Part shown: piece by piece, positions 26,501 through 47,437 of the stretch | How positions within the stretch are numbered: the first letter of the stretch is position 1 | Layout of the letters: every line of letters begins with the position of its first letter | Assembly: GCF_025149465.1 (NCBI RefSeq) | Contig: NZ_CP102275.1 | Location: 1-64,000, forward strand | From: Thomasclavelia spiroformis DSM 1552 | GTDB taxonomy: Bacteria; Bacillota_I; Bacilli_A; Erysipelotrichales; Coprobacillaceae | Length of the DNA stretch: 64,000 bases | Reading direction: 5' to 3' | The notes under the pieces: generated by a model | The model's input: only the letters and a program-made list of their open reading frames with translations | Database searches by the model: none | Told to the model about the DNA's origin: nothing | Translations under genes and position numbers: made by a program

Positions 26501-27142
26501 ATGGTAGTAAATGAATTGGCAGTTAAAAAAATATTAGATGAATTGAATGATGTAAAATTAATTGCAGCTACTAAATATGTAGGTATAGATGAAATTAATA
26601 AATTAGAGAACTTAGGAGTAATGTATTTTGGAGAAAATCGTGTTCAAGCATTTTTAGAAAAATATCAAAAATATAACGGTAATTGTAAATTTCATATGAT
26701 TGGAACATTACAACCTAATAAAGTAAAATATATAATTGATAAAGTTGATCTAATCCATTCAGTAGATAGCTATTCATTAATAAAAGAAATTGAAAAACAA
26801 GCAAACAAACATAATTTGGTAATGAAAGTTTTAATTCAGGTTAATATATCTAAAGAAGAAAGTAAACATGGTTTTAAGGTTGAAGAGATAGAAGAAGTAT
26901 TTGATACATTAAAAAATTATCCGCATATTGAAGTAAAAGGATTAATGATGATGGCCCCGAATATTGAAGCAGAAAAGACAAGAGAATATTTTAAATTAAC
27001 ACAGGATTTATTTAATCAACTAAAAATTAAATATCCTGAATACTCTTTAACTGAGTTATCAATGGGAATGTCAAATGATTATAAAATAGCTTTAGAATAT
27101 GGGGCAACAATGGTAAGAATTGGAAGTAGTTTATTTAAATAA
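26501..27142 (+). CDS. YggS/YlmE-family PLP-binding protein
   Basis: A 213-aa single-domain, alanine-racemase-fold protein that binds pyridoxal phosphate and keeps B6 and amino-acid pools balanced. Seen: LIAATKYV with the PLP lysine (TK), FGENRVQAFLEK, FHMIGTLQPNKVK, IHSVDS, VLIQVNISKEESKHGF, GLMMMAP and LSMGMSNDYKIALEYGATMVRIGSSLF. The ATG at 26501 follows AAGGAGGATCTTAAT and is preferred to an in-frame ATG at 26480 that contains this ribosome binding site. Confidence 0.93.
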   Translation: MVVNELAVKKILDELNDVKLIAATKYVGIDEINKLENLGVMYFGENRVQAFLEKYQKYNGNCKFHMIGTLQPNKVKYIIDKVDLIHSVDSYSLIKEIEKQANKHNLVMKVLIQVNISKEESKHGFKVEEIEEVFDTLKNYPHIEVKGLMMMAPNIEAEKTREYFKLTQDLFNQLKIKYPEYSLTELSMGMSNDYKIALEYGATMVRIGSSLFK

Positions 27143-27476
27143 AATTATAAGTCTAATTTGGTCTATTAAATATTTTTGATTAAAAGTATTGATTTTATAA
27201 GAAAAATAAGATATTTTAATATAAGAGGAAAATAATGATATATAGTTGATTTATGGGTTTTAACATACATAAAGGGGAAATTAAGTATAAAAATTATTAC
27301 TATATATGTTATTGATAGTACTTAAAAAATTGCGTTAAGTATTGGCAAATTATTTTGATAAATATAAATATTTTATAGAGCATGTATTAAGGTTTTTATT
27401 TATAAATGATGTGTTCAAAATGGGAATAAATTATATGGGGAGGAAAAGTGCATAAAAAGTACTTAAGTTATTTAAA
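27143..27476 (+). other. Long leader upstream of the Spo0A-like gene
   Basis: No full gene. It contains a sigma-H-like promoter (27224-27253), an imperfect inverted repeat AGTACTTAA/TTAAGTATT near 27315-27342 (AGTACTTAA recurs near 27459), a strong GGGGAGG (27437-27443) and the start of a 10-codon ORF overlapping the downstream start codon. Confidence 0.5.
27224..27253 (+). promoter_or_regulatory. Possible sigma-H promoter
   Basis: AGAGGAAAA (27224-27232) matches the sigma-H -35 pattern RnAGGAWWW. Twelve bases on, GTTGATTTA (27245-27253) matches the -10 pattern RnnGAATWW except for one base. In Bacillus spo0A is transcribed from a sigma-H promoter. AT-rich DNA makes chance matches likely. 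Confidence 0.35.
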
Positions 27477-27480
27477 ATGA
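27448..27480 (+). CDS. 10-codon leader ORF coupled to the Spo0A-like gene
   Basis: GTG start 4 nt after the strong GGGGAGG, encoding MHKKYLSYLK and ending TGA at 27478-27480, which overlaps the downstream ATG (ATGA). The downstream gene has no Shine-Dalgarno of its own, so ribosomes finishing this ORF would restart there. Whether the peptide itself matters is unknown. Confidence 0.4.
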   Translation: MHKKYLSYLK

Positions 27481-28220
27481 ATAAGAAGATACGCATTGTA
27501 GTTTTAACAGAAGATTATTTATTGAAAGAAAGTTTAGTTAATAAAATAAATAGTAATAGTGATTATGAAATAATAGGTATATTTGATGATGGTATAAAAT
27601 GTTTGAAGTATTTGATAAATCATGAAAGTGATTTATTTGTAATTGATTTTATGCTTACTAATATTGATGCAGTAGGTCTGATAACACAATTGAAAAAGAA
27701 TAATCCACAATCATTTAAGAAATTGATCTGTATTAGTGATTTTGATATATTAATATTTGATATTCTAAAGGAATTATCAATAGATTACTGTTTAAGAAAA
27801 CCATTTAATTTAGATTATTTTATGGAAATAGTTAAACGTATGTTCGATGATAAATTTGAAAATTCTAAAAAAAAAGATAACAAACTTATAAAAAATGAAT
27901 TGAATAAAATTTTTATCGATATTGGTGTGCCATGTCATCTAAAAGGATATAACTATTTATTAACAGGTATAAGTGAAGTATGTAACAATATTAATTTATT
28001 AGATGAAGTAACTAAAAAGTTATATCCTAGCATAGCTAGAAAATGTGGTACCACAGCATCTAGAGTAGAACAATCAATAAGGCATGTTATCAAAGTAACA
28101 TGGATGAATGGTAATCAAAAAGAATTGGAAAAGATATTTGGAATAAGAGCAAAAAGAAGACCATGCAATTCAGAGTTTATTTCAAAAATGGCAGATACCT
28201 TGTCAACTAGTTATTATTAA
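27477..28220 (+). CDS. Spo0A-like response regulator (divergent paralogue)
   Basis: A 247-aa two-domain regulator. The receiver (about residues 1-120) has acidic ED (in VVLTEDYLL), the phospho-acceptor Asp in FVIDFMLTNID, Ser in CISDF and the Lys-Pro of LRKPFN, so it looks phosphorylatable. The Spo0A C-terminal domain follows (about 135-247): GVPCHLKGYNYL and the recognition region TTASRVEQSIRHVIKVTW. Compared with canonical Spo0A, the recognition helix has changes (ERAIRHAI to EQSIRHVI). It lies convergent to a second Spo0A. It has no ribosome binding site of its own; see the leader ORF. Confidence 0.88.
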   Translation: MNKKIRIVVLTEDYLLKESLVNKINSNSDYEIIGIFDDGIKCLKYLINHESDLFVIDFMLTNIDAVGLITQLKKNNPQSFKKLICISDFDILIFDILKELSIDYCLRKPFNLDYFMEIVKRMFDDKFENSKKKDNKLIKNELNKIFIDIGVPCHLKGYNYLLTGISEVCNNINLLDEVTKKLYPSIARKCGTTASRVEQSIRHVIKVTWMNGNQKELEKIFGIRAKRRPCNSEFISKMADTLSTSYY

Positions 28221-28290: not shown

Positions 28291-29106
28291 TTATAAATAA
28301 CTATGACGACTAGCTGCTTTGGTTTGATGTTCTAAACGTAATTTATCAGCAATCATAGCAATAAATTCTGAATTAGTCGGTTTTGATTTAGTAGCACTAA
28401 CTGTATAACCAAAAATATCATCAATAGCATCTGTGTTTCCACGATTCCATGCAACTTCGATTGCATGACGAATTGCTCTTTCGACTCTTGAAGCAGTTGT
28501 ACTATATTGTCGAGCAATATCAGGATAAAGTACTTTAGTAACTTGTCCAAGTAATTCAATATTGTAATAAGTAGATAAAATTGCAGTTCTTAAATACATG
28601 TAACCTTTTATATGAGCAGGAATTCCTACTTCATGAAGAATTTCTGTTATTTCATTTTCTAACTTAATCTTTTTGTATTTTTCAGATTCATTTTGATTCA
28701 TATCTTTCATATCTTCCAATGATACTTTCATAATTGAATTTAAAGTATTTGTGAAATAATTAATATCAAATGGTTGTTTAAAACAGTAGTTAACATTTAG
28801 TTTCTCTAAATTTTCACAAATTAAAGGATTTGTAAAACTAGTGATACATACAACTTTATTATATGCATGACTATTGATTGTTTTTAATTTGTTTAAAACT
28901 CCAATTCCATCAATATTTGTTAACATTAAATCAATAATTAATAAATCACAATTATTAGTTGATAAATAATTTAAACAATTTGTTGCGTTATCACTTGTAC
29001 CAATAACTGTAAAATTATTTGTTTTAATTATACTTTCTTTAATATTATTTAGTAAATCTTTGTTTTCTTCTAAAATATATACAGTATATTTTTTCATGTC
29101 TGTCAT
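28291..29106 (-). CDS. spo0A: Sporulation master regulator Spo0A
   Basis: About 271 aa. The C-terminal DNA-binding domain is canonical: [18 protein letters not shown], as in Bacillus and Clostridium Spo0A, with [13 protein letters not shown] before it and [17 protein letters not shown] after it. The receiver has EE in place of the usual DD, the phospho-acceptor Asp in [12 protein letters not shown] and Thr/Ser in CITSF. Its KP motif reads FKQPF, so the conserved Lys before Pro is Gln. The ATG at 29106 has AAGGGG 9 nt upstream; a TTG 30 nt earlier is possible. The longer form would add ten residues. Confidence 0.93.
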
Positions 29107-39965: not shown

Positions 39966-42900
39966 ATGCAAAATATCTTTAAAAAGATTTTAGCGGTATT
40001 AATTGTAATAACCGTATGTATTTCAAATAGTTATTTTTTGATAGATGTTTCAGCAAAAGAAAAAGCAGCATCTACTCTTGATGATTACAAAGATAAAACA
40101 GAAGTAGGAGCAATACTCGATACTAATCAAGAAATAACGACAATGGATGAAAATGGAAATGTTCATCCATTAGAAGAAACGGATGTTATAAATAGAAGAC
40201 AAGTAATGGATGCTCAACCAAGAATTAGTAATTCATCTGTTGCGGTAGTAAATTTTAGAACTAAAAGTTCATCATCATATAATACCGAATATACAGAGGT
40301 TACTACTGGTAGAGCTGGGTATACAAATGGTTACTATGCAGCTGATGGAGCATTTTTAGGATATGATAATGAATCAAATCCAACAAAAGTAAAATTTATG
40401 CAGGCTGGTGTAGTTGGTTGGGTTAATGTTAATGAAGTTCAAGTTTTAGAATATACAAGCTCTGCAGTAAACACATTAAGTAAATATTACGTGAAAAATG
40501 GTAGAATATATCATGGTATTAGTACTAATCTAGCAAGTAGTAATTATGGATCAGCCTTAGATTATGGACCTAAACCATCGTATTTAAAAGAAGGTGTGGA
40601 TTATTATAGCTACGATGGTCACTATTTTTATGAAGGAAGTACATATGCAAGCTATGCAAAAATGTTGAATGATTATCGTAATAATACTAGAGCTAATTCA
40701 GTGAATAGCTCTTCACCATACTATAATTATTATGAGTATCTTTCTCATCGAAGTATTACTGCTTATAGTGCAGTTGAGTTAAATAATGCTATAGCTTCAA
40801 TGGTTACAGCATCAGAAAATAGTTATGGACGTACGTCAAAATTGAGAAATATGGCTGATGCCTTTATTGAAAATCAAAATAAATATGGAACTAATGCTTT
40901 ACTTATGATTGGAGTAGCAGCAAATGAAAGTGCATGGGGTTGTAGTAGAATTGCAGCAGAAAAAAATAATTTATTTGGGCATGCAGCATATGATAGTGAT
41001 CCTGGAGGAAGCGCAAATGGATATTCGTCTGTAGAATATAGCATTTATTATCATTCATCACAATTCATATCTAAAGGATATTTAGATCCTGTTACAGATG
41101 GTAGATATTTTGGAGCTAATTTAGGAGATAAAGGTAGTGGAATTAATGTTAAGTATGCTTCTGATCCTTATTGGGGAGAAAAAGCAGCAGCAGTATGTTG
41201 GAAAATAGATAGCTATTTAGGATCAAAAGATTCATATAAATATACAATTGTTATTAAAGATACGATCAATGCTAATCATAGCGTTATAAATATAAAAAGC
41301 GATGCAGTATCAAATTCAAATACACTTTATTCAACTTATCCCAAAAGTAAAACAACTACTTTAAAAAATCAAGCACCTGCTAATTATCCATTTATTATTT
41401 TAAAAAATGGAGAAAAAAATAATTATTATAAAATACAATCAGATGGTGCGGTAAATAGTAATCGTACAGGAATTATAAATATGCCTAGTCAGGCTGAATA
41501 TTCTTTTGATAAAGATTATGGATATATTCCAAAATCAAGTGTAACAGTAGTAAGCAACGGTTTTAATTCTAGTTCATCAATAGCCCAAAATACTGAAAAT
41601 GTTACTGGACAGCCAACAGGAAAAGATAGTAGTGAACCAACTATTTCATATAGTGCTAATAGTCAAGATATTGGTTGGTTAGAACAAGTAACGGAACCAA
41701 ATACAGCAGGTACTACAGGAAGATCATTGGATTTATATCAAATTAAAATATCTTTAGCAAATGCTGTGAAATCGGCAAAACTATCAGCTAAAGTTTATAG
41801 TGATGGTAAATGGCTAACCTATGATAAAATTACCGCAGACACAGAAATTGGAAATGCTGATAAAGCATTACAAATTGTTAACTTTAATTTAAGTAATCAA
41901 GCTGGATATCGATTACAGTATCGAGTTCATAGTGCTGATATCGGTTGGCAACCATGGGTTAATCAAGGTGAAGATGCAGGAATAAGTGGAAAAAATATTC
42001 AAGCAATTGATTTTAAATTAGTAAGAGATGGTTCTGTAATAATTACAAAACCAAGTATTTATTATCAAGCTCATATAAGCCAAGACGGTTGGTTAGATTA
42101 TGTAGGTGATAGTGAAATAGCTGGGAATATTGAAAAATCTTATGCACTAGAAGCTTTTAAAATTGGAATTGATAATATCAGCAGTAATTATCAATTGAAT
42201 GTAAAAACATATGATAAAGTAAATGGTTGGGTAAATTATGATAATGTAAAAGGAGATACAATTATTGGTAGTACAGGTAAATCATTATCATTACAAGCAA
42301 TCAATGCTACGTTAAATAATAATGATGGATACAAATTACAATATCGAACATATTTATCTAATCAAGGATGGTCAGATTGGACTAATCAGGGTTCAGTAAG
42401 TGGAGTTACATCAGGAGATAATGAAATAAAAGCAGTAATGTTTAGAATTATTCAAGATTTATCAATTTCTAGTGTAACATTGAACAAACAAGAAACAACA
42501 CTTGTAAAAGGGACAACTGAAACACTAAAAGCAACGATCAATCCAAGTGATACAACAGACAGCAAAGCATTGACATGGACAACAAGCAACAGTAAAGTAG
42601 CAACAGTAGACAGTAATGGAAAAGTAACAGGAATATCAGAAGGAGAAGCTACAATTACAGTAAGAACAAGTAATGGAAAAACAGCAAGCTGTGAAGTAAC
42701 GGTAATAGAACAAGAACCAGAATTGGTTTATCAGGCACATGTAGCTGATTATGGCTGGTTAGAAACAGTTGGTGATGGAGAAACAGCAGGAACAACTGGC
42801 AAAAACAAACAGATGGAAGCCATTAAGATAAATTTGATAAATAATGTATATAAAGGTACAGTGGAATACAGTGCACATGTAGCTGATTATGGCTGGATGG

Positions 42901-43625
42901 CATGGACAGATAATGGAAACCAGGCAGGAACAACTGGTGAAAACAAACAGATGGAAGCTATCAAAATTAAATTAACGGGTGAGCTTGAAGAGAAATATGA
43001 TATATATTATCGAGTACATGCAGAGGAATTAGGATGGCTAGATTGGACATCAAATGGAAAAGCAGCAGGGACAGCAGGATATTGTTATCAGATTGAAGCA
43101 ATTGAAATAAAATTGGTAGAAAAAGGAAGCAGGGCACCCGGAGCAACAGAAAGAGCATATGTGCAGAAAAGATATATAAAATATGCTTCGCATGTAGCTG
43201 ATTATGGATGGCTATCAGATGTATATGATGGAAGTATTTCAGGAACAATAGGAAAATGCAAACAGATGGAAGCAATAAGCATTTCATTAGAAAATCAGCC
43301 ATATGGAGGGAATATCGAATACCGAACACATAGTGCAGATATTGGATGGCAGGAATTTAGAAGCAATGGAACGGTTGCAGGAACAGTAGGAAGAAATAAG
43401 CAGATGGAAGCGATAGAAATCAAGCTTACAGGAGAAATGGAAAAAGAATATGACATCTACTATCGTGTACATATAGCCGATTATGGCTGGTTAGATTGGG
43501 CAAAAAATGGAGCAAGTGCCGGAAGTGAAGGAATGTCCAAAAGAATAGAGGCAATAGAAATAAGGATTGTTCAAAAAGGAGGAAGCGAGCCAGGGAATAC
43601 AGTAAGACCGTTTATAAAAAAATAA
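39966..43625 (+). CDS. Secreted N-acetylglucosaminidase with 12 ChW repeats and a BIG2 domain
   Basis: A 1219-aa exported protein. It has a signal peptide (about residues 1-30) and an SH3-like region. The glucosaminidase domain (about 290-420) contains LMIGVAANESAWGCSRIAAEKNNLFG, with the likely catalytic Glu about 321. Six ChW repeats (about 559-830), a BIG2 Ig-like domain (about 835-915) and six more ChW repeats (about 919-1210) follow. It probably cuts glycan strands of peptidoglycan. The repeats fall into four ordered triplets. The last third is nearly identical in DNA to the end of the next gene. RBS AAAGGAGG. Confidence 0.9.
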   Translation: MQNIFKKILAVLIVITVCISNSYFLIDVSAKEKAASTLDDYKDKTEVGAILDTNQEITTMDENGNVHPLEETDVINRRQVMDAQPRISNSSVAVVNFRTKSSSSYNTEYTEVTTGRAGYTNGYYAADGAFLGYDNESNPTKVKFMQAGVVGWVNVNEVQVLEYTSSAVNTLSKYYVKNGRIYHGISTNLASSNYGSALDYGPKPSYLKEGVDYYSYDGHYFYEGSTYASYAKMLNDYRNNTRANSVNSSSPYYNYYEYLSHRSITAYSAVELNNAIASMVTASENSYGRTSKLRNMADAFIENQNKYGTNALLMIGVAANESAWGCSRIAAEKNNLFGHAAYDSDPGGSANGYSSVEYSIYYHSSQFISKGYLDPVTDGRYFGANLGDKGSGINVKYASDPYWGEKAAAVCWKIDSYLGSKDSYKYTIVIKDTINANHSVINIKSDAVSNSNTLYSTYPKSKTTTLKNQAPANYPFIILKNGEKNNYYKIQSDGAVNSNRTGIINMPSQAEYSFDKDYGYIPKSSVTVVSNGFNSSSSIAQNTENVTGQPTGKDSSEPTISYSANSQDIGWLEQVTEPNTAGTTGRSLDLYQIKISLANAVKSAKLSAKVYSDGKWLTYDKITADTEIGNADKALQIVNFNLSNQAGYRLQYRVHSADIGWQPWVNQGEDAGISGKNIQAIDFKLVRDGSVIITKPSIYYQAHISQDGWLDYVGDSEIAGNIEKSYALEAFKIGIDNISSNYQLNVKTYDKVNGWVNYDNVKGDTIIGSTGKSLSLQAINATLNNNDGYKLQYRTYLSNQGWSDWTNQGSVSGVTSGDNEIKAVMFRIIQDLSISSVTLNKQETTLVKGTTETLKATINPSDTTDSKALTWTTSNSKVATVDSNGKVTGISEGEATITVRTSNGKTASCEVTVIEQEPELVYQAHVADYGWLETVGDGETAGTTGKNKQMEAIKINLINNVYKGTVEYSAHVADYGWMAWTDNGNQAGTTGENKQMEAIKIKLTGELEEKYDIYYRVHAEELGWLDWTSNGKAAGTAGYCYQIEAIEIKLVEKGSRAPGATERAYVQKRYIKYASHVADYGWLSDVYDGSISGTIGKCKQMEAISISLENQPYGGNIEYRTHSADIGWQEFRSNGTVAGTVGRNKQMEAIEIKLTGEMEKEYDIYYRVHIADYGWLDWAKNGASAGSEGMSKRIEAIEIRIVQKGGSEPGNTVRPFIKK
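42527..43625 (+). repeat. 1.1-kb direct repeat, copy A (BIG2 plus six ChW repeats)
   Basis: Matches 46339-47437 at a constant offset of 3812 bases with no indels. I saw about six substitutions, several of them silent. It begins within the BIG2 domain and ends at the stop codon in both genes. Confidence 0.95.
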
Positions 43626-43786: not shown

Positions 43787-46700
43787 ATGAAAATTAAATT
43801 AGTTATTGCAATGTTAATAGGTTCATTAATTATGGGGTCATTTACAGTTATATCTGTTTATGGAAAAAATGATGAACTTGATACAACATTATTAGAAGAA
43901 CATGCGGGGGGATTATTGGATTATACTAAAATGTATGGTTTAGAAAAAGAGGAGGTAAAACCAATAACACATAATCGTTATTTACGTTCAAGTGCACCTC
44001 AAGAAAACAATTATCTTGCAATAATGGTTGAATTTCCTGATAAAACAGGAACAAGTCTTGATGATGTACAAACATTAAGCAAGGCCGAGGCTGTAATGAA
44101 TAAGGGTAATCGAAATATGGAAACACCCAACGGTAGCGTACCGATTATTTCATTAAAAGAATATGTTGAAAAATATACATATCATAAAATGACTACTAAA
44201 ACTACTTTTTTTCCACAAGATAAAAGCGGTAATGTAGTATCAGTAATGTTATCAAAAAATCGCAGTTATTACATGAAAAAATCTGCTAGTAATCCAAATG
44301 GTTACACATTAACTCAAGCTCGTGAAAGAGAAGAAGAGTTAGTAAATGAAATTCTATCTAAAGCTAAAGAAAGTATCGAAAGAGTTTTTAATGCAAGTGA
44401 TTTAGATAAAAATAATGATGGTAATGTTGATGCTATTTCTTTTTTTATTGAGGCTGATAAAGTAACTGAGGATAAAGTAGAATGGTCTGATTTATTATGG
44501 TCTCATAAAATTAGTGGGATGAATTTAAATGTTACTTTAGAAGGAAAGAAAGTTAATACATATAACTTAATTAATACTTATGATAGTAATTATTTAGGTG
44601 GCGTTTTTTCAATGAACCAAGGTACTTATGGTACAATTATTCATGAGTATATGCATGTTTTAGGATTACCTGATTTATATCGTTATAATAGCGGTGGTGA
44701 TCCAGTTGGATTTTATGATATTATGGCTACTACAACAAATTATAACCCACAGGGTATATTGGCATATATGACAAGCGAGTATAACAATTTAGGATGGAAT
44801 AGCTTATCGGAGGTAAAATCGTCTACAAGTGTTACTTTGAATAAGCCACAATATTCTAACCCAAGTGAAAAAAGAGCTGTTAAAATAGTTTCACCAGTTA
44901 ATGAAGATGAGTTTTTTATTGTGGAATATTATGAAAAACGAGATAAAGTTTATGCATCTGATACAAGTATTAGTGATGGACTTGTTGTATATCGAATTAA
45001 TTCTAAAGTAAAAAATGGAAATATGAATGGTACTTCAACTGGGAAAAATGATTATTTATATGTTTTTAGGCCAAATGAAACTGGTTGTGGTAAAGGAGAA
45101 GGAAATCTAAATCAAGCAGTATTAAGTAAAAATGGTCGCAGTAGCATTGGTAAACCACTTAATACAACGTATAGTTGGAATAATGATACATTATTTTATA
45201 GTAATGGTACAAATAGTGGGATTACTATTAATATCACTAGTAGTAGTAGCAATAGTATAACTTTTGATATTAATGTACCAATAGTTCAAGGTGATGGAAG
45301 TACTGCTAAACCATATTTAATTAGTAGTGTTGATGATCTTGATTTAATTAGAAAAAATAGTACAAAAGTATTTAAATTACTAAATGATATTGATTTAAGC
45401 GGTGTTAGTAATTTTCAAACAATTTCCAATTTTAGTGGAACTTTAGATGGAAATGGTTTTGCTATTAAAAATTTAACACTTAATAATCAATCAAGCTTTA
45501 TAAACACCTTATCAAGTAGAGGAGTTGTTAAGAATTTAAATTTTGAAAATATTTCAATTACAAATAGAAATTCTTCACATACTGGAATCTTTGGAACAGT
45601 TAGTGGTCAATTGGAAAATATTGCAATTAAATCAGGAAAAATATCTAATCAATCAAGTAATAATGGTCAATATTTAGGGACTGGAGCATTAGCAGGAGTA
45701 TTATCTAGTGGAGGAGCGATTAAAGATTGTTATAGTAGTGCCAATGTAACTCAAGGAATAAATGTAGGTGGTTTAATTGGTTTAAATCAAAATGGAACAA
45801 TTCAAGATTGTTATGTTAATGGTGTTGTAAGCAGTGGTAAGAAAAGTAGTGGAGCTGTAGTTGGAACACAATATTTTACAAGTTATGATCGATATAAACA
45901 ACCTGAAAATGTATTGTATGATATTAATAAAACTAAACAAAATGAAGCAATTGGAACAGTTTATGGAAGTGATAAATTAATTGATAACAAAACAGGTAAA
46001 GAAGGATTTATTGGAGTTGATTTATTAAAAGAGATAACATTAGATATATCTGGTATAAAAGAAAAGGAACTTGGTCTAACGATTAAAGCTAATCCAATAA
46101 TAAGTCTATCAAAAAAAGTGACTATTAAAGATACTAGTATTGCTACTTATAATAGTATTACCAATAGAATTCAAGCACATAAGAGAGGAAAAACAGAATT
46201 AACAGTATCATTACCAGTCGGTAATAATACAATGATACTTTCATCAACGATAAATGTTATTAATTCAAATATACCAATAACAAGAGTTACATTAGATAGA
46301 TCATTATTAACTCTAAATTTAAATCAATCTACTAATTTAAAAGCAACGATCAATCCAAGTGATACAACAGACAGTAAAGCATTGACATGGACAACAAGCA
46401 ACAGTAAAGTAGCAACAGTAGACAGTAATGGAAAAGTAACAGGAATATCAGAAGGAGAAGCTACAATTACAGTAAGAACAAGTAATGGAAAAACAGCAAG
46501 CTGTAAAGTAACGGTAATAGAACAAGAACCAGAATTGGTTTATCAGGCACATGTAGCTGATTATGGCTGGTTAGAAACAGTTGGTGATGGAGAAACAGCA
46601 GGAACAACTGGCAAAAACAAACAGATGGAAGCCATTAAGATAAATTTGATAAATAATGTATATAAAGGTACAGTGGAATACAGTGCACATGTAGCTGATT

Positions 46701-47437
46701 ATGGCTGGATGGCATGGACAGATAATGGAAACCAGGCAGGAACAACTGGTGAAAACAAACAGATGGAAGCTATCAAAATTAAATTAACGGGTGAGCTTGA
46801 AGAGAAATATGATATATATTATCGAGTACATGCAGAGGAATTAGGATGGCTAGATTGGACATTAAATGGAAAAGCAGCAGGGACAGCAGGATATTGCTAT
46901 CAGATTGAAGCAATTGAAATAAAATTGGTAGAAAAAGGAAGCAGGGCACCCGGAGCAACAGAAAGAGCATATGTGCAGAAAAGATATATAAAATATGCTT
47001 CGCATGTAGCTGATTATGGATGGCTATCAGATGTATATGATGGAAGTATTTCAGGAACAATAGGAAAATGCAAACAGATGGAAGCAATAAGCATTTCATT
47101 AGAAAATCAGCCATATGGAGGGAATATCGAATACCGAACACATAGTGCAGATATTGGATGGCAGGAATTTAGAAGCAATGGAACGGTTGCAGGAACAGTA
47201 GGAAGAAATAAGCAGATGGAAGCGATAGAAATCAAGCTTACAGGAGAAATGGAAAAAGAATATGACATCTACTATCGTGTACATATAGCCGATTATGGCT
47301 GGTTAGATTGGGCAAAAAATGGAGCAAGTGCCGGAAGTGAAGGAATGTCCAAAAGAATAGAGGCAATAGAAATAAGGATTGTTCAAAAAGGAGGAAGCGA
47401 GCCAGGAAATACAGCAAGACCGTTTATAAAAAAATAA
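43787..47437 (+). CDS. Secreted M6-type metalloprotease with BIG2 domain and six ChW repeats
   Basis: A 1216-aa exported protein. A signal peptide (about 1-26) precedes an M6 (immune inhibitor A-like) zinc protease domain: LAIMVEFPDK, the calcium-loop-like DLDKNNDGNVD (205-215) and zinc site HEYMH (286-290) followed by GLPDLYR and a methionine turn YDIMATT. Beyond lie GLUG-like motifs (about 580-700, GGLIGLNQNGTIQDCY), a BIG2 domain (about 830-913) and six ChW repeats (about 916-1207, two triplets). It would degrade extracellular proteins; the target is unknown. RBS AGGAGGAATGTAAT. Confidence 0.9.
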   Translation: MKIKLVIAMLIGSLIMGSFTVISVYGKNDELDTTLLEEHAGGLLDYTKMYGLEKEEVKPITHNRYLRSSAPQENNYLAIMVEFPDKTGTSLDDVQTLSKAEAVMNKGNRNMETPNGSVPIISLKEYVEKYTYHKMTTKTTFFPQDKSGNVVSVMLSKNRSYYMKKSASNPNGYTLTQAREREEELVNEILSKAKESIERVFNASDLDKNNDGNVDAISFFIEADKVTEDKVEWSDLLWSHKISGMNLNVTLEGKKVNTYNLINTYDSNYLGGVFSMNQGTYGTIIHEYMHVLGLPDLYRYNSGGDPVGFYDIMATTTNYNPQGILAYMTSEYNNLGWNSLSEVKSSTSVTLNKPQYSNPSEKRAVKIVSPVNEDEFFIVEYYEKRDKVYASDTSISDGLVVYRINSKVKNGNMNGTSTGKNDYLYVFRPNETGCGKGEGNLNQAVLSKNGRSSIGKPLNTTYSWNNDTLFYSNGTNSGITINITSSSSNSITFDINVPIVQGDGSTAKPYLISSVDDLDLIRKNSTKVFKLLNDIDLSGVSNFQTISNFSGTLDGNGFAIKNLTLNNQSSFINTLSSRGVVKNLNFENISITNRNSSHTGIFGTVSGQLENIAIKSGKISNQSSNNGQYLGTGALAGVLSSGGAIKDCYSSANVTQGINVGGLIGLNQNGTIQDCYVNGVVSSGKKSSGAVVGTQYFTSYDRYKQPENVLYDINKTKQNEAIGTVYGSDKLIDNKTGKEGFIGVDLLKEITLDISGIKEKELGLTIKANPIISLSKKVTIKDTSIATYNSITNRIQAHKRGKTELTVSLPVGNNTMILSSTINVINSNIPITRVTLDRSLLTLNLNQSTNLKATINPSDTTDSKALTWTTSNSKVATVDSNGKVTGISEGEATITVRTSNGKTASCKVTVIEQEPELVYQAHVADYGWLETVGDGETAGTTGKNKQMEAIKINLINNVYKGTVEYSAHVADYGWMAWTDNGNQAGTTGENKQMEAIKIKLTGELEEKYDIYYRVHAEELGWLDWTLNGKAAGTAGYCYQIEAIEIKLVEKGSRAPGATERAYVQKRYIKYASHVADYGWLSDVYDGSISGTIGKCKQMEAISISLENQPYGGNIEYRTHSADIGWQEFRSNGTVAGTVGRNKQMEAIEIKLTGEMEKEYDIYYRVHIADYGWLDWAKNGASAGSEGMSKRIEAIEIRIVQKGGSEPGNTARPFIKK
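46339..47437 (+). repeat. 1.1-kb direct repeat, copy B
   Basis: Partner of 42527-43625. Differences noticed include tgtgaag/tgtaaag (Glu/Lys), acatcaaat/acattaaat (Ser/Leu), tattgttat/tattgctat (silent) and acagtaaga/acagcaaga (Val/Ala) near the end. Confidence 0.95.

Follow-up and report, generated by a model that had tools for sequence, protein, structure and literature searches.

The locus raises the question of how translation is started on a Spo0A-like gene whose ATG has no Shine-Dalgarno sequence (SD) of its own. No AGGAGG-, GGAG- or GGTGA-like sequence is present within 20 nt 5' of this ATG in the window, by which is meant the whole 64,000-nt stretch of DNA that was analysed from the 2.53 Mb genome of Thomasclavelia spiroformis DSM 1552. 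A strong SD is found at about -34, followed by a short open reading frame (ORF), and according to the original prediction this ORF encodes a ten-codon leader peptide which is coupled to the gene through an ATGA overlap and may sense tRNA charging or ribosome state. The gene upstream of the leader terminates at 27142. The two genes downstream are:

27477..28220, + strand: Spo0A paralog with receiver and Spo0A_C domains (domain and ortholog searches)
28291..29106, - strand: true spo0A (TIGR02875 equivalog), with an ordinary close SD (AAAGGGGAATAAAAAG-ATG)

The product of the gene at 27477 has 247 amino acids, with a clear Spo0A_C domain and a receiver domain slightly below the Pfam cut-off. It scored 167.9 bits against the Spo0A equivalog TIGR02875, below the curated cut-off of 200, whereas the convergent gene scored 279.5 bits, above the cut-off, so that the former was assigned as a Spo0A paralog and the latter as the true Spo0A. 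Protein searches identified orthologs of the paralog in all eight other Thomasclavelia genomes (43-67 % identity), it is convergent with spo0A in every Thomasclavelia genome, and as far as the searched sequences indicate it is specific to Thomasclavelia. At the position expected to hold the conserved Lys-Pro of the receiver, the true Spo0A of this family has Gln, Tyr or His (CFKQPF, CFKYPF or CFKHPF), and the paralog keeps RKPF. Elsewhere in the window, two adjacent large proteins (39966-43625 and 43787-47437) are nearly identical over several hundred C-terminal residues composed of repeated 'HVADYGWL...GTTG...EAI.I.L' units, which suggests a recent duplication.

The predicted letters of the leader were exact, with the following features:

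27437..27443, + strand: GGGGAGG Shine-Dalgarno sequence, 33 nt 5' of the ATG, the only strong one for the paralog (alignment, parsimony)
27448..27480, + strand: leader ORF GTG...TGA of 10 codons (MHKKYLSYLK), overlapping the ATG; the frame is not conserved, the RTG codon is conserved

The ORF reads GTG CAT AAA AAG TAC TTA AGT TAT TTA AAA TGA, with 10 sense codons that include two for Tyr and two for Leu, and its TGA (27478-27480) shares the letters ATGA with the ATG of the paralog (27477-27479). The leader was compared in ten sequences from a single genus, namely nine Thomasclavelia species, the window included, and a duplicate in genome G006. The strong SD is kept in the nine species and in the paralogous copy, as is an RTG 4-6 nt downstream of its GAGG (10/10), and the sole change in this codon, from G to A, still leaves a start codon. 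The RTG frame comprises 10 codons in the window and 1, 1, 1, 7, 2, 2, 7, 4 and 6 codons in the other sequences (e.g. GTG-TGA or GTG-TAA). Five of the ten have it in the frame of the gene, the window alone has the ATGA overlap, and no codons are common to the ten ORFs. Because the length and frame relation vary and the overlap is confined to the window, the leader peptide is not a conserved feature, and relatives that lack the leader frame are what the original prediction had itself named as evidence against it. The missing close SD, the distant SD and the RTG thus stood, whereas the coupled ten-codon peptide did not, and its role as a tRNA-charging sensor is unsupported, since relatives do not keep the frame.

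Base rates pointed the same way. They rest on 464 kb sampled from the source genome and on a simple ORF-based list of 269 genes. A short out-of-frame ORF that ends at or next to the gene start was found at 40 of the 269 sampled genes, and at 2 of the 269 with an SD in front, so that such ORFs are common by chance. In the alignment, conservation of the SD in ten sequences far exceeds what chance would give, which does not hold for the length of the ORF or its stop overlap. The 4-nt gap from GGGGAGG to the GTG is also poor, as gaps of 4 nt were seen at 3 of about 70 GGAGG sites, with a peak at 7-8 nt. Although the window does contain this ORF with its SD and the ATGA, the translated, ATGA-coupled sensor peptide was judged the least probable of all explanations. 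Leader-peptide attenuators of the trpL or ermC type have a short ORF with its own SD, and in this respect the window resembles them, with such an ORF placed before a regulator gene; unlike in those systems, neither the peptide nor its codons and length are conserved here, and conservation of the frame and of regulatory codons, which marks such attenuators, was not found in the ten sequences. The original prediction had missed that the GTG lies within a conserved inverted repeat, and the locus illustrates how another conserved element can give rise, as a by-product, to a leader ORF in a single genome.

The distant SD is the only credible ribosome entry for the paralog. Nearer candidates are weak or misplaced and occur only in the sequences E0 (AGGA) and MAG139 (GAGG, 1 nt from the ATG). 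The SD-to-ATG distance of 29-33 nt in the ten sequences is, taken linearly, far outside the range of the genome, in which gaps of 12-14 nt were already limited to 3 of about 70 sites. The ATG could alternatively be reached with no SD at all, either on a leaderless or processed mRNA or by SD-independent initiation in an A/T-rich region. The 10-12 nt before the ATG are indeed A/T-rich, and 25 of the 269 sampled genes lack any SD-like sequence, but this route would leave the conservation of the SD, of the adjacent arm of the repeat and of the distance to the ATG unaccounted for. A promoter between the SD and the ATG was also rejected, as no sigma-70-like consensus match was found on the + strand of this interval and none is conserved. 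In several species a promoter-like TGnTATACT box lies well upstream, and initiation free of an SD was therefore considered very improbable.

The promoter-like box (TGnTATACT/TATATT) is conserved about 115-180 nt 5' of the paralog ATG in leaders L004-L011 and L054 and is preceded by TATACACATAAGTTTTATATTC in several species; the window has only a weak version of it, near 27356. The TGnTATACT-like box of these relatives would place the 5' end of the mRNA. The sequence GGAGGAAAA was considered as a SigH promoter and rejected, since it fits a -35 element by eye but a matching -10 element is absent. Downstream of the promoter box, a second strong SD (of the AGAAAGGGGG type) with a short upstream ORF was observed in L008, L054, L009, L010 and L011, and is absent from the window; the two upstream ORFs of G006 are alike (MSSLNMKLILNHKFLANYETGSDMMF and MNYFDIKNILRYKFLVKYKVISG).

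The SD is part of a module with the same order in all ten sequences: a GGGATAAAG-like block, a link of 4-6 nt, GAGGA, 1-3 nt, AARTGY, a loop of 4-7 nt, a complementary arm, 10-12 nt and the ATG. Its further parts in the window are:

27422..27430, + strand: GGGAATAAA, the window form of the GGGATAAAG-like block, 5' of the SD (alignments; 0.78 changes per site)
27446..27451, + strand: left arm of the predicted spacer hairpin, AAGTGC, which contains the GTG (covariation counts, RNAalifold)
27452..27458, + strand: predicted hairpin loop, 7 nt in the window and 4-6 nt in relatives (alignment)
27459..27464, + strand: right arm of the predicted spacer hairpin, GTACTT (covariation counts, RNAalifold); pair 6 is C-G (U-A in relatives) and pair 5 is G-U
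27465..27476, + strand: A/T-rich tail from the hairpin to the start codon, 10-12 nt in 10/10 (parsimony comparison)

In the ten sequences, 91.7 % of the helix cells are paired, compared with 25-43 % when the partner is slid. Four cells changed on both sides, a number reached by one of 500 shuffles, and the inner four pairs are unbroken in 10/10. Among the compensatory changes, one clade has A-U in place of G-C at pair 3, and the window has C-G in place of U-A at pair 6; RNAalifold placed the same helix unprompted. The paralog family is limited to one genus, so that few independent changes are on hand. As a six-pair stem arose in 290 of 1000 resamplings of the A/T-rich spacer of the window, and is thus frequent by chance in a single spacer, the case for a hairpin rests on the comparison. 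The predicted energies of the isolated hairpins were -1.9 to -6.1 kcal/mol (-4.7 kcal/mol in the window), with the weak ones in An173, MAG139 and E0. In ensembles of the 130-nt leader the inner pairs had a probability of at least 0.7 in five sequences, and the hairpin was improbable in S24, the G006 main copy, the G006 duplicate, MAG139 and E0; with this split of five to five, structure prediction alone is not decisive. The SD was predicted to be unpaired at 56-89 % across the sequences and at 79 % in the predicted UTR of the window, where its duplex with the anti-SD was calculated at -10.4 kcal/mol.

The preferred reading, which was given a probability of about 0.45, is that conservation acts on a module for ribosome entry and not on a leader peptide, and that the hairpin brings the distant SD to the ATG. 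The 30S subunit would bind GAGG(A), 29-33 nt 5' of the start, and the spacer would fold into a hairpin which starts 2-4 nt past the SD and stops 10-12 nt short of the ATG. The path from SD to ATG would thereby shorten to about 12-15 nt (up to 18 nt with the outer pairs lost), an effective spacing at or beyond the tail of the distribution in this genome, which usually has 7-8 nt, and with the path so shortened the ATG of the paralog would come within reach. The hairpin would also hide the nearer RTG in its left arm, which could otherwise act as a decoy start. We infer that the repeat folds in the cell and that its folding promotes initiation at the ATG.

To our knowledge, most of the documented ribosome-binding sites split by a hairpin are from phage T4, and in Escherichia coli thrS the SD adjoins the AUG and the hairpin lies upstream of the SD. 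The thrS gene has a split ribosome binding site, and its likeness to the present locus is that a hairpin is accommodated in the ribosome-binding region (PMC3936740), with the difference that here the hairpin would lie between SD and AUG. According to PMC3014915 (citing Nivinskas 1999; Malys and Nivinskas 2009), structure cuts the SD spacing from 22 to 5 nt in T4 gene 38 and from 27 to 11 nt in T4 gene 25, and disruption of the hairpins lowers translation. The window appears to share the features of this type of site, namely an SD far outside normal spacing and a putative path-shortening hairpin between SD and AUG, and as in that account of the T4 genes (PMC3014915) close relatives keep the arrangement and distant ones lack it. 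Unlike in T4, the gene is a chromosomal Firmicute regulator and not a phage structural gene, the site is predicted here from sequence, a start codon lies within the stem, and the effective spacing is predicted to be 12-15 nt, compared with 5-11 nt for the two T4 genes as they are described there. A search for a distant SD combined with a stem of at least five pairs was negative for all 25 sampled genes that lack an SD-like sequence.

The rates of change within the module bear on what else the left arm may do. Parsimony gave 0.33 changes per site for the left arm, 0.38 for the SD, 0.78 for the GGGATAAAG block, 1.5 for the right arm, 2.6 for the tail and 3.75 for the loop, on a paralog tree in which several nodes are weakly supported. 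As the left arm changes as little as the SD, and far less than the right arm, pairing is not its only constraint, and the RTG that it contains would be the obvious source of the rest. This RTG is central to the main rival, ranked second after the hairpin-spaced site and considered possible though unlikely, in which the RTG starts a frame-independent minigene of 1-10 codons, with its stop at the ATG or short of it, and ribosomes reinitiate at the ATG; the peptide would be irrelevant, as all that would count is the delivery and release of a ribosome nearby, and the hairpin would tune access to the RTG. Cis-acting minigenes independent of frame are known, such as axe-txe mg2 and the mini-ORFs of Bacillus subtilis ycbK, the latter sharing one SD with the gene (PMC8708949). 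The present locus is like them in having an SD, an RTG and a very short ORF that ends near the gene start in any frame (PMC8708949), and unlike them in that a covarying hairpin encloses the RTG, which follows the SD at a short distance, and in that the gene has no second SD. In 10/10 a stop in the RTG frame is reached no later than the ATG, but two control frames also closed early, in 8/10 and 5/10, which makes the placement of stops weak evidence. The gap from GAGG to the RTG is the short one of 4 nt in eight sequences (5 and 6 nt in the other two), the distance from the stop to an ATG that lacks an SD reaches 24 nt, and a minigene alone leaves the co-varying right arm unexplained.

A third explanation is that the inverted repeat is recognized by a regulator that controls the paralog, which might be an sRNA, a protein that binds RNA or a dimer that binds DNA, with the nearby SD used less directly. 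The symmetric changes of the two arms are also compatible with a DNA operator, the loops are exactly 5 nt in seven of the ten sequences and the GGGATAAAG-like block is conserved, but the arms are unequally conserved and their spacing varies from 4 to 7 nt, and a loop that varies while the stem is kept is more in line with RNA than with an operator in DNA. Searched with a covariance model of the element, each of the nine Thomasclavelia genomes gave one copy and no second site, save for the duplicate in G006 (48.9 bits), which lies directly 5' of a truncated Spo0A-like gene of 140 amino acids that has lost its receiver domain. Weaker matches in the genus (26 bits and less) occurred at unrelated genes and look like chance on their scores and positions, and 34 genomes from other genera in the family yielded nothing comparable. 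The duplicated gene belongs to a second convergent spo0A / spo0A-like pair in G006 (L054, 557-1054 on the + strand and 1087-1509 on the - strand), with products of 165 and 140 amino acids, both of which have lost most of the receiver and kept Spo0A_C, and the element is retained before the paralog. The restriction to single sites, together with the absence of CsrA, the obvious candidate for binding GGA, from all nine genus genomes, which also excluded CsrA control via GGA motifs, made a recognition site improbable. The region 27143-27600 gave no Rfam match at E values up to 1, and a known riboswitch or other Rfam element was thus ruled out. The element was also rejected as a general feature of Spo0A genes, since the true spo0A genes and the third Spo0A-like copies of some species have ordinary close SDs.

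The hairpin-spaced site and the minigene can be combined, as a closed hairpin would expose the gene and an open one the decoy. The locus would then be a two-state translational switch, in which the closed form hides the RTG decoy and brings the SD to the ATG, and the open form diverts ribosomes to a dead-end minigene. That opening and closing regulate the paralog is something we infer, and the full switch was regarded as a speculative extension, somewhat less probable than a recognition site. If it were true, the output of a sporulation-type regulator would depend on a tiny RNA thermometer, or on a ligand- or protein-responsive hairpin, inside the ribosome-binding site.

If the hairpin-spaced reading is correct, a hairpin-split site has been conserved before a chromosomal response regulator in gut Firmicutes, and the arrangement would be one that selection keeps in bacteria. 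The module is kept even in the duplicate that lost its receiver domain, and would provide a compact, testable control point for the Spo0A paralog of Thomasclavelia.
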